A stretch of DNA of 64,000 nt from the NCBI RefSeq assembly GCF_001441165.1, contig NZ_CP013126.1, forward strand, positions 2,199,551 through 2,263,550, given 5' to 3'. Origin of the DNA: Acidipropionibacterium acidipropionici (lineage in GTDB: Bacteria > Actinomycetota > Actinomycetes > Propionibacteriales > Propionibacteriaceae). This document shows, in pieces, positions 58,134-62,166 of the stretch. The number at the start of each line of letters is the position of its first letter. Positions within the stretch are counted from its first letter, which is position 1. The notes under the pieces are model-generated. The model saw only the letters and a list, made by a program, of their open reading frames with translations. It had not been told where the DNA came from and ran no database searches. Both the position numbers and the translations under genes were made by a program.

Positions 58134-58169
58134 TCCCACCCACACCTGAACATGGAAGGCTGCTCCGCA

Positions 58170-59957
58170 ATGCCGCTGACTGACCCCGCCCTCGTCGCCC
58201 TGGCCGAACACTTCGGCGTGGCCCGCAGCTTCACCGACTGGAAGGGCCGACAGACCTTCGTCGACGACGAGACCATCAGGGCGGTGCTCGGCGGGCTCGG
58301 GATCGACGCCGGCACCCCGGAGAAGGCCGAGGAGGCGCTGGTGGCCGTCGAGGAGCGGCCGTGGCGCCGCACCCTGCCGCCATGCACGGTGCTCCGGCAG
58401 GGCCAGGAGGGCCGGATCGACGTCCACCTGCCGGCGGGCCAGCAGGTGGAGGTCTCCATCGAACTGGAGGACGGCAGGTCCCGGTCCTGCTGGCAGGTCG
58501 ACAACTGGAATCCCGATCGCCAGATCGACGGAAGGCAGGTCGGCGAGGCCACCTTCGGCATCCCCTCCGATCTGCCGCTGGGCTACCACACGGTGGTCGC
58601 CGGCACCGTCGACCGTCGCAGCACCGCCAGCCTCATCGTGACCCCGAGCTGGGTCGGGCTGCCGGCCGCGATGGAATCTCGAAGGGTCTGGGGCTACGCC
58701 ACGCAGATCTACTCGGTGCGGTCGCACAATTCGTGGGGGATGGGGGATCTCACCGATCTGGCCGACCTGTGCACCTGGTCGGCCACCCAGGGCGCCGACT
58801 ACCTGCTCATCAATCCGCTGCACGCCGCCGAGGTCGTCCCTCCGATGGAGCCCTCGCCATACCTGCCGTCGAGCCGGCTCTTCCTCAATCCCGTCTACGT
58901 GCGTCCGGAGCTGATCCCCGAGTACCAGGACCTCGACGACGCCGCCCGCGATCACGCCCGTGCGCTTCGGGTGGAGGCCGTCGGCAATGACACCGCCGCG
59001 GAGCGGATCGATCGGGACCGCACCTGGACGCGCAAGAGGCCGGTGCTGGAGGAGATCCACCGGACGGGGCTGGGGCCGGCCCGCAGGATGGCGTTCCGGG
59101 CGTTCCGGCGGTTGCGCGGCTCCCGGCTGTCCGACTTCGCGGCCTGGTGCGCGATCTCGGAGGTGCACGGATCCAACTGGAAGCTGTGGCCCGAGCCGCT
59201 CCAGCATCCGGGGAGCCGGGAGGTCGCCGCCTTCGTCGCCTCGCACGCGAGCCGGGTGGATTTCTACGAGTGGCTGCAGTGGATCGCCGAGCAGCAGCTG
59301 TCGGCGGCCGACCGGGCCGGGCGGGACTCCGGCATGGCGCTGGGCCTCATCTGCGATCTGGCGGTCGGGGTCAGCGGCTGCGGCGCCGACACCTGGATGC
59401 TGCCCAACCTCTTCGCCGAGGGGGTGAGCGTCGGCTCGCCGCCCGACCAGTTCAACCAGGCCGGTCAGGACTGGGGACAGCCCCCGATGCGCCCCGACGT
59501 GCTGGCCGAGATGGCCTACCGGCCCTTCCGGGAGATGGTCGCCGGGGCGCTGAGGCACGCCGGCGGGCTGCGGATGGACCACATCATGGGGCTCTTCCGG
59601 CTCTGGTGGGTCCCCCTGGGGCTGGGACCCCGCAAGGGCGCCTATGTCCGCTACGACCATGAGGCGATGGTCGGGATCCTCGCACTGGAGGCCTACCGCG
59701 CCGGAGCCCTGGTGATCGGCGAGGATCTCGGGACGGTCGAGCCGTGGGTGCGCGACTACCTGCGCGACCGCGGCCTTTTCGGCACATCGGTGATGTGGTT
59801 CGAGCTGGACGGCGCCGGCCGACCGCTGGCGCCGGAGCAGTGGCGGGAGTACGCCCTGTCCTCGGTGACCACCCACGATCTGCCGCCCACCATCGGCTAT
59901 CTGGCCGGCGACCACGTCGAGCTGCGTCACCGGCTGGGGCTGCTCACTGAGCCTTGA
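58170..59957 (+). pseudogene. malQ: 4-alpha-glucanotransferase, 5' part, interrupted by IS element
   Basis: 595 residues of amylomaltase (GH77), which transfers glucan segments between maltodextrins in maltose and glycogen metabolism. The catalytic residues are all on this side: nucleophile Asp in 'LICDLAVGV', acid/base Glu in 'VIGEDLGTVEP' and the 'TTHDLPPTIGY' histidine-aspartate. The native frame runs to GAG 59949-59951; the last residue and stop (CCT TGA) come from the IS left end. Without the IS, codon 59949 joins in frame to 61589 (LLTE-SVDSERAQ). About 112 C-terminal residues are displaced. Partial activity is possible but folding is doubtful. ATG 58170 has GGAAGG upstream; 58152 is an alternative. 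Confidence 0.88.
59947..59951. repeat. Left 5-bp target-site duplication of the IS element
   Basis: CTGAG, identical to 61584-61588 on the other side of the insertion. Confidence 0.75.
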
Positions 59958-61583
59958 TCCACCGATGCGGTTCTGTATGCAGTGTCCGGCTGTGTGATCC
60001 CTGTGGTTCGGATTGAGGGCATGGGTCACCCGCCGGTCTGCCCGGCGTGTCCACTGCTGGTTCCTTGGTCAGGGGCTTTGGGGCCCGGATGGTCAACTGG
60101 CCAATGCGAGGGGCGGGCCGACAGCGGTGGCGGTGGTCCACAGTCTTGTGAACTGGGTGGCCCAGGGCCAGCGGCGGGGCATGTGGAGGTACCGGCGGCG
60201 GGCCCGGTGTGCGATCCGGGCGGGGATCATGATCAGCCTGCGGGTGATGGTGGGCATTCTCGCTGTACTCATGCCAGCGGCGTGGGCCGCGGCGCGTGAC
60301 AGGTTGAACGCGATCACCGCGCAGGCCAGCCAGGCGGCGTTGGCGGTGAACCGGCCCGAGGGCAGGTGGGCCAGGGGTCCGGCCTTGAGCTCGGCGATGA
60401 CCTGCTCGACGATCGCATGATCCCGATGCCTGCGGTCGGCCTCGACGGTGTCCAGATCGGAGTTCGTGATGAACGCGTGGTACCGGTACGACTCGACCAG
60501 CGGGTCCTGGCCGGCCGGGTTCAGGCGCTTGACCCGGCGGACCACCAGCCGGCAGGACACCTGCTCATCTTTCGGGTGGGAGACGAACGCGGTGAACGGG
60601 GTCTCGGCAACCTCCGCATCGCTGATGAGTTCCCCGGTCTCGGGTTCGATGACCGCATGCGGGTACCGGATGGGTGTCCACGCCTGCTCGTCGATACCGG
60701 AGATCGCCGCGGTCACGGTCGGCCAGGCGGGGATCGTCACACTGAACCAGCAGCCGTGATCGGCGAAGGCGTGGATCGTCTCGCAGGTGCAGAAGGCCGA
60801 GTCGGCCCGCCCCAGGATCTGGGTGCCGGGACGGACCGTGCGGGCCAGGGTGATGGACCGTGTGGCGTGCCAGGCGGCATGATCTCCTGATTTCACGTTG
60901 CCGCGGCGCAGCCCGGCCCCGGTGATCACTGGCGGGCAGGAGTCCGAGGAGACGACGGCCAGGATGGCGTTGAGCCCTTTGACCTTGTTGTAGCCGTAGG
61001 CCACACCCTGCTTGCGGTAGCCGTGGAGTTCCCGGATGGTGTCGTCCAGATCGACTGTGATCAGCGGGTCGGCGCCGAACAGGCCCGGCACCACCGGGGC
61101 CAGATGTTCCAGTAGTTTCCGGTTGACCGCCCCCAACTGCAGCACGTGCCCGTGGGTGAAGCTGCGCAGGAAGGTGCCCAGGGTCGAAGGGGCCCGGACC
61201 CCGCCCATGACCTTCGGTGTGCCGCCGGTCCGGAGGATCCCGGTACCGTCGATGTCATCGGCGCCGGCCAGCATCCCCGCGACCAGACTGCGGGCCTTGA
61301 GTGGGGCGTTGGGACAGTCGACCGTCAACCTGCCGGCCAGCAGACTGATGAAATCGGCCTGTTCGGCCAGGCCCAGGATCGCGGGCAGGCCTCCGGCGGC
61401 CACCAGATGATCCTCATCGAAGACAGGAGTCGGGGCCGTGACGGGCTCGTGGGATACTTGCACCTGAGAGATGCCCCCTCGATCGGGTTGATTCGTTGTC
61501 TAGCAACACCCATCATCCCTGGTCGCAGAGGGCATCTCCACTTTTTGGGCCCGACCCATCACCCCGACGCCGGTGGATCAAGG
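59952..61583 (-). mobile_element. IS1380-family-like insertion sequence, 1632 bp
   Basis: The ends are perfect 13-bp terminal inverted repeats: CCTTGATCCACCG (59952-59964) and CGGTGGATCAAGG (61571-61583). CTGAG is duplicated on both sides. One transposase gene fills it on the minus strand, opposite to malQ. Length, the CC end and transposase type fit IS1380, although that family usually makes 4-bp duplications. Intact ends and transposase suggest a recent, possibly still mobile copy. Confidence 0.9.
60093..61463 (-). CDS. IS1380-like DDE transposase
   Basis: A 456-residue RNase-H-fold transposase. The probable catalytic triad is Asp at 138 or 140 in 'LITVDLDDTIRELHG', D221 in 'ILGRADSAFCT' and the Glu in 'IVEQVIAELKAGPLAHLPSGRF' (Y-1-like E region), followed by 'NAAWLACAVIAFNL', which is typical of IS1380 (DDE_Tnp_1 group). 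The basic tail ('RIAHRARRRYLHMPRRWP') is usual. GTG 61463 is taken as start. No frameshift or stop is seen, so it should be functional. Confidence 0.9.
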   Translation of the reverse strand: MQVSHEPVTAPTPVFDEDHLVAAGGLPAILGLAEQADFISLLAGRLTVDCPNAPLKARSLVAGMLAGADDIDGTGILRTGGTPKVMGGVRAPSTLGTFLRSFTHGHVLQLGAVNRKLLEHLAPVVPGLFGADPLITVDLDDTIRELHGYRKQGVAYGYNKVKGLNAILAVVSSDSCPPVITGAGLRRGNVKSGDHAAWHATRSITLARTVRPGTQILGRADSAFCTCETIHAFADHGCWFSVTIPAWPTVTAAISGIDEQAWTPIRYPHAVIEPETGELISDAEVAETPFTAFVSHPKDEQVSCRLVVRRVKRLNPAGQDPLVESYRYHAFITNSDLDTVEADRRHRDHAIVEQVIAELKAGPLAHLPSGRFTANAAWLACAVIAFNLSRAAAHAAGMSTARMPTITRRLIMIPARIAHRARRRYLHMPRRWPWATQFTRLWTTATAVGPPLALAS

Positions 61584-61588
61584 CTGAG
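61584..61588. repeat. Right 5-bp target-site duplication of the IS element
   Basis: CTGAG, matching 59947-59951. Confidence 0.75.
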
Positions 61589-61924
61589 AGTGTGGACTCC
61601 GAGCGGGCGCAGGCGGTGGCCGAGCGCGAGCAGTGGGTGCAGGAGCTGCGGAATCGCGGTGCGCTGGCGTCGGCGTGTCCCACCGATGAGGAGATCGTGG
61701 TGGCGATGCACCGGCTGCTCACCTGGACCCCGTCGCGGATCCTCAACGCCACCCTCACCGATGCGGTGGGGGACCGACGCACCCAGAACCTTCCCGGCAC
61801 CGTCAACGAGTACCCGAACTGGCGGGTGCCGCTGTCGGGCCCCGACGGGCGTCCGATGTGGCTGGAGGACCTCTATGTCGACCAGCGGGCGGCGCGGATC
61901 GCCGACGTCCTCAACGGCAACTGA
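61589..61924 (+). pseudogene. malQ: 4-alpha-glucanotransferase, 3' part, cut off by IS element
   Basis: 111 residues plus stop forming the normal C-terminus of MalQ ('VAEREQWVQELRNRGALA...PTDEEIVVAMHRLLTWTPSRILNATLTDAVGDRRTQNLPGTVNEYPNWRVPL...WLEDLY'), in frame with the 5' part once the IS and one CTGAG copy are removed. It has no start codon or ribosome site of its own, so it is unlikely to be translated. The coding sequence itself is undamaged. Confidence 0.85.
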
Positions 61925-62000
61925 CGCGGGACATGGCTGCGGCGCGGACGGTGATCCGTCTGCGCCGCAGCCATGCCCCTCACACCTGCTCGGGGAATCG

Positions 62001-62166
62001 TTGAACACGATCTCCGACCCGATCCGCAGCGCGAGGCCGGCGACGCAGACCCTGGGTCAGCGTCAACCGCCGCTACGAGGAGGTTGAACGCGCCCACTGA
62101 CCCGACCCGCAGCGCGAGGCCAGCGACGCAGACCCTGGGTCAGCGCCAGCCGCCGCTACGAGGGGG
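62001..62166. repeat. 83-bp direct tandem repeat, two copies
   Basis: Copy 1 at 62001-62083 and copy 2 at 62084-62166, each starting TTGAAC and sharing GCAGCGCGAGGCC, GCGACGCAGACCCTGGGTCA and CCGCCGCTACGAG. They lie between malQ and the HU gene. The reverse complement resembles the sequence after the purE hairpin (42699-42770). Confidence 0.8.

Follow-up and report, generated by a model that had tools for sequence, protein, structure and literature searches.

Elements of the IS1380 family carry terminal inverted repeats that begin with CC and a single open reading frame, and measure about 1.6-2 kb. They are usually described by the length of their target duplication and not by a target code. 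In the parts of the sources cited here, this length is given as 4-5 bp for the family as a whole (PMC12116815) and as 5 bp for both IS1247 (Table 2 of PMC3281130) and ISEcp1 (PMC2887853), the individual duplications reported for ISEcp1 being TATGA (PMC2887853) and AGGCA (PMC12116815). The eukaryotic transposon piggyBac has been paired with IS1380-like elements as their counterpart, in a passage of PMC5718144. Its ends begin with CCC and its target is the palindrome TTAA, with TTAG and CTAA as rare alternatives, according to an excerpt of PMC10813416, and a section of PMC7351741 describes both the cutting of DNA through hairpins by Tn5 and piggyBac and the seamless excision shown for piggyBac.

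Here we describe an IS1380-family element that interrupts malQ in a 64,000-nucleotide stretch of Acidipropionibacterium acidipropionici DNA (the window). By itself, a single insertion in malQ is ordinary. Comparison of related elements and their flanking sequences shows, however, that the actinobacterial clade to which this element belongs inserts at CTNAG and duplicates those five base pairs, a strict code that holds clade-wide and a sequence specificity that was absent from an earlier note on this DNA. No clade-wide IS1380 target code was found in print among open-licence papers, and the CTNAG code of this lineage seems to be undescribed. We consider it very likely that the locus records a recent cut-and-paste insertion at a CTGAG in malQ, by a member of a CTNAG-using clade with a hairpin in its transposase leader and a proposed target contact through residue 313, and that MalQ was most likely lost as a result.

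The insertion in malQ

The element occupies positions 59952-61583 on the minus strand (1632 bp), and its ends, CCTTGATCCACCG and CGGTGGATCAAGG, are complementary at 13 of 13 positions. These inverted repeats lie at 59952-59964 (plus strand, on the 3' side of the transposase gene) and 61571-61583 (minus strand, on the 5' side). Directly outside them are two copies of CTGAG, at 59947-59951 and 61584-61588, a 5-bp repeat with a fixed register because the adjoining bases differ on either side. The transposase gene (60093-61463, minus strand) starts with GTG and encodes 456 residues without an internal stop; its product matches the IS1380 model NF033539 at 288 bits (cut-off 180) and PF13701 at 103.5 bits (cut-off 34.7). 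With inverted repeats starting in CC, one open reading frame and a length of 1632 bp, the element agrees with the description of the family. The perfect 13-bp repeats, CTGAG flanks and intact IS1380-like transposase reported in the earlier note are thus borne out, while its view of the five-base duplication as out of the ordinary for the family was wrong: 4-5 bp is normal according to PMC12116815, PMC3281130 and PMC2887853, and 5 bp is also what the related elements in this study produce.

Both malQ fragments are open, as the earlier note had read them. The 5' part extends from 58152 to 59951 (plus strand), comprising 600 codons before the insertion, and its frame stops inside the element at 59955-59957; the 3' part (61586-61924, plus strand) consists of the last 112 codons and the stop. 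The two parts align with uninterrupted MalQ of all four congeners, at 75-91% and 68-91% identity respectively. In a search for GH77 enzymes, each of the four congeners yielded an uninterrupted gene whose reading frame stays open for 714-719 codons, and the genome studied here yielded a single locus, the interrupted malQ. Since malQ is the sole GH77 gene found in the genome, amylomaltase has probably been lost from the strain, which is what the earlier note had expected unless a second gene existed. The loss of activity would most likely come from removal of the last 112 residues; of the 465 positions in the GH77 model, the longer fragment matches just 2-390.

Two further copies with the same ends, L002 and L003, were found in the genome (one contig, 3.65 Mb). 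They show no differences from the window copy across the 1632 bp, and the duplication at all three is 5 bp and reads CTCAG in the transposase sense. Because the clean duplication is present again at two further copies, an assembly artefact at the junctions is unlikely. Each is inserted precisely at a TGA stop codon, L002 at that of a Gfo/Idh-type oxidoreductase gene and L003 at that of a galE-type epimerase gene, both genes being identified from a reading of their translations, so that these two genes are spared; malQ is cut because the insertion site there lies away from the gene end. The three identical copies, together with the uninterrupted malQ in four of four congeners, support the view already taken in the earlier note that the insertion is recent, and it is absent from these congeners. 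All four congeners read CACCGAG and not CTGAG at the malQ site, so the CTGAG that would have preceded the insertion is deduced from the duplication.

The gap that follows malQ (window positions 62000-62165) contains two tandem 83-nt copies that are 88% alike. They belong to a dispersed repeat, for which a 191-base query gave at least 37 matches in the genome, and its core at this position holds GACCCTGGGTC.

Target sequences of two IS1380 clades

Relatives of the element were collected as 57 loci from named genomes and as loci from further genomes of the order and class, with only the inverted repeat used to place the element ends. Excluded were loci that lacked a full-length match to the transposase, those with more than three mismatches at an end and two duplicates. 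In the 53 elements that were left, both ends and a full-length transposase were present; the flanks were complete in 51 and cut in the other two. An identical 5-bp repeat was present in 44 of the 51; it read CTNAG in 38 and was one mismatch off in the remaining six. Seven sites had no identical repeat, and two of these carried CTNAG on both sides in unlike forms. The background of CTNAG in the flanks is 185 of 95,135 5-mers (0.19%).

The set was enlarged by eight more elements and by 27 of 36 newly read loci (two of the 36 were duplicates and seven had no identical repeat), giving 79 sites with clean 5-bp duplications and as many distinct flank pairs. CTNAG was exact at 70 of the 79 sites and one mismatch away at nine. 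T2 and A4 were invariant (79/79), C1 was found at 74/79 and G5 at 75/79, and no strong base preference was seen beyond the 5 bp across these sites. An ordinary IS1380 hop with no target preference, in which CTGAG/CTCAG arises by chance or forms part of the element ends, is compatible with the presence of just three copies in the genome and with TATGA and AGGCA, the duplications given for ISEcp1 in the parts of PMC2887853 and PMC12116815 cited. Such frequent exact matches at 79 distinct flank pairs, against so low a background, make this hardly credible. It is further countered by the uninterrupted sites in congeners, where a single CTCAG stands at the galE-type site in two of four and at the Gfo/Idh-type site in two of four; CTCAG therefore belongs to the target and not to the element.

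Among named elements, ISCef7 (pCE2) is flanked by CTAAG and IS1677 (pGA2) by CTTAA, both in keeping with the code, and no clear duplication was found for ISRer1 (L218) or ISCli1 (L219). Two elements from Bacilli (L221 and L222) gave TTTTAT in one case and nothing clear in the other. As ISEcp1 and a Lactobacillus-type element deviate from it, the CTNAG code does not extend to the whole IS1380 family. Three elements of the 5-bp clade, L029, L079 and L205, have CTNAG at both ends with unlike central bases.

CTGAG contains the stop codon TGA and CTAAG contains TAA, and a transposase that targets stop codons or gene ends, with CTNAG as a side effect, would explain why two of the three copies in this genome sit exactly at a TGA stop. 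Coding-like stops, as classified by an open-frame and GC-by-codon-position rule and not by gene annotation, are overlapped by 9 of 45 targets compared with 13 of 181 background occurrences of CTNAG (Fisher p 0.015). Yet 36 of the 45 targets lie off stops, the malQ copy is inside its gene, the 4-bp clade described below uses YTAR, and selection against in-gene insertions accounts for the mild excess. We regard this explanation as very unlikely; with only 9 of 45 targets at stops, stop-codon targeting was rejected as a mechanism and is retained as a by-product. The preferred reading, a transposase specific for CTNAG, would if true partly account for the frequent insertions at stop codons, and the code would aid the annotation of element ends in GC-rich genomes and offer a bacterial system for cheap tests of target choice and seamless excision.

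A second IS1380 clade, separate on the tree (support 100), is likewise represented by three copies in the genome. Its transposases share 23-25% identity with the window transposase in the alignment and 26-34% in local matches. From 70 loci, 52 had complete flanks, and an identical 4-bp repeat was present in 30 of them: CTAG in 16, CTAA in nine, TTAG in three, and TTAA and TCAG in one each. The background of YTAR in these flanks is 0.18%. For the genome's own copies L122, L123 and L190 (G000:C1 near 1.32, 1.68 and 3.50 Mb) the ends were taken from copy-to-copy comparison, an independent placement, and the flanks read CTAG/CTAA, CCAG/CCAG and CTTG/CTTG, respectively. With the CCAG and CTTG of these copies included, YTAR accounts for 29 of 32 identical 4-bp repeats.

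This clade also contains elements whose two flanking repeats differ although each reads YTAR, TTAG/CTAA being an example; they are L128, L131, L136, L147, L148, L165, L170 and L173, making eight in all, or nine with L122. These unlike pairs may reflect recombination or carried-over bases. For a contiguity test of the mismatched 4-bp duplications, relatives offered nothing informative to compare with the flanks, and most of the sites were intergenic.

Residue 313 and the transposase leader

The central base of CTNAG divides the 5-bp clade into users of C or G (S) and users of A or T (W). Seven CTWAG users form one clade (support 100) adjoining the CTSAG users around the window element (support 99), and three more W users fall in other parts of the tree; in the flanks CTWAG is five times rarer than CTSAG (31 vs 155). 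Only one alignment column, 313, separates the two groups fully, with R in 16 of 16 S users and D in 10 of 10 W users. In the window, the codon of R313, the candidate reader of the central base, is at 60525-60527 (minus strand, position computed from the start of the open reading frame). Counted by site, R313 occurs with C/G in 32/32 and D/E313 with A/T in 20/22, in counts that omit L192 and L198 (both with D at 313 in the alignment listing; among the newly read loci L192-L197 show a gap in this column) and in which one row, that of the window, enters L001 for a second time. The exceptions are two D313 elements, L113 and L114, which lie in CTCAG. A prediction fixed beforehand was correct at 12 of 12 sites among new loci (R with S at 4/4, D with W at 8/8), these sites deriving from two R and five D elements. 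The unseen sites with a clean repeat numbered 15, the other three having Ala313, which was outside the prediction, and all being S. Ala313 represents a third residue state, observed in the transposases L277, L278 and L286 at CTSAG (and in L284, at CTSAG on the left side only).

This pattern suggests that residue 313 contacts the central base, Arg serving for G-C and Asp or Glu for A-T. Residue 313 may instead merely mark clades whose target preference differs for another reason, a substantial possibility that falls somewhat short of probable. Independent switches are few (sign test on starred branches, p 0.5), so that residue and target may be linked by descent only; position 90 differs as well, with R at a frequency of 0.94 among S users and Y at 0.90 among W users; and L113 and L114 depart from the rule. 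A simple marker sits less easily with the fact that 313 is the sole fully separating column and that all 12 unseen sites covered by the prediction were called correctly. Between the sister elements L032 (R, CTGAG) and L035 (D, CTAAG), moreover, the residue and the central base change together, in what looks like a single clean switch. If residue 313 does contact the central base, swapping it may change the target.

Upstream of the start codon, the transposase mRNA has a conserved leader hairpin (61466-61539, minus strand) with arms at about 61527-61539 and 61466-61478. A Shine-Dalgarno-like GAGGGGG (61474-61480, minus strand) lies within and at the edge of the 3' arm. In the window element the arms are about 12-13 nt long and enclose a 47-nt loop, with a folding energy of -38.9 kcal/mol (z -2.95), and the leader without its 5' arm folds no better than shuffles. 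Across 37 elements, 47 cells of the stem changed on both sides compared with 20.9 +/- 5.2 in shuffled data (0/500), and own arms pair at -25.5 kcal/mol compared with -17.7 kcal/mol for arms crossed between elements. RNAalifold by itself gave only four pairs, and a search against Rfam gave no match in the window. Covariation shows an RNA hairpin that holds the ribosome-binding site in the transposase leader.

The same inverted repeat could be a DNA feature, for example a palindrome bound by the transposase or a repressor, with no RNA control of translation. Proteins can bind to inverted repeats that lie close to the ends of an element, and a consensus scan found no sigma-70-like promoter in the leader, the loop included. 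We consider this improbable, as the arm sequences vary among elements while the pairing is kept, the ribosome-binding site immediately before the start codon is covered by the 3' arm in every case, and about 40-50 nt would be a long loop for a palindrome that serves for binding. An RNA hairpin of this kind probably blocks read-through translation of the transposase. A block in the loop (61512-61517, minus strand), spaced as a -10 hexamer and missed by the consensus scan, has A and T at hexamer positions 2 and 6 in 37 of 37 elements, and its conservation suggests that the transposase promoter lies inside the hairpin loop. The element's own mRNA would then start in the loop without the 5' arm, escape the hairpin and be translated, whereas an mRNA entering from outside would form the hairpin and go untranslated. 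A leader hairpin also shields IS50 and IS10 against read-through transcription.

Relation to Tn5, piggyBac and other IS1380 elements

A structural model of the transposase (pLDDT 86.9) has as its top match Tn5 transposase (Z 23.9 over 350 residues, 8% identity), followed by piggyBac; the comparison with piggyBac 6x67 gives Z 13.4 and an rmsd of 5.2 over 317 residues, so that Tn5 scores higher. A sequence search for relatives among solved transposases gave nothing meaningful. We propose that this DDE transposase shares with Tn5 and piggyBac, its two nearest solved folds, a route of cutting by way of hairpin ends, and that the element would then be joined to a target of 5 bp, staggered and with T-N-A as its palindromic core. 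It is possible, though rather doubtful, that the two IS1380 clades and piggyBac share an ancestral palindromic target logic, with a T-A core in YTAR (4 bp) and T-N-A in CTNAG (5 bp), that is used at both excision and insertion, with seamless excision and a swappable residue 313. If so, the malQ insertion would be reversible through seamless excision, and 4-bp flanks that differ from each other, such as TTAG/CTAA, would preserve bases of an earlier target brought along on the element overhangs.

Set beside the known systems, the element is closest in family to ISCef7 and to IS1677 of Corynebacterium glutamicum, which are about 45-46% identical to it. ISEcp1/ISEc9 is likewise of the IS1380 family and makes a 5-bp duplication, but its duplications are not CTNAG and it captures adjacent genes, a behaviour of which nothing was seen for the window element. 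Tn5/IS50, the best structural match, makes a 9-bp duplication and is not known to have such a target core. With piggyBac, a transposon known for inserting strictly and reversibly, the likeness lies in the target, a T-A core within TTAA beside T-N-A within CTNAG, and may extend to the fold. The piggyBac target is TTAA and 4 bp long, whereas the window element duplicates the 5 bp CTGAG/CTCAG; we therefore describe the IS1380 clades as akin to piggyBac in target choice and do not class them with it.
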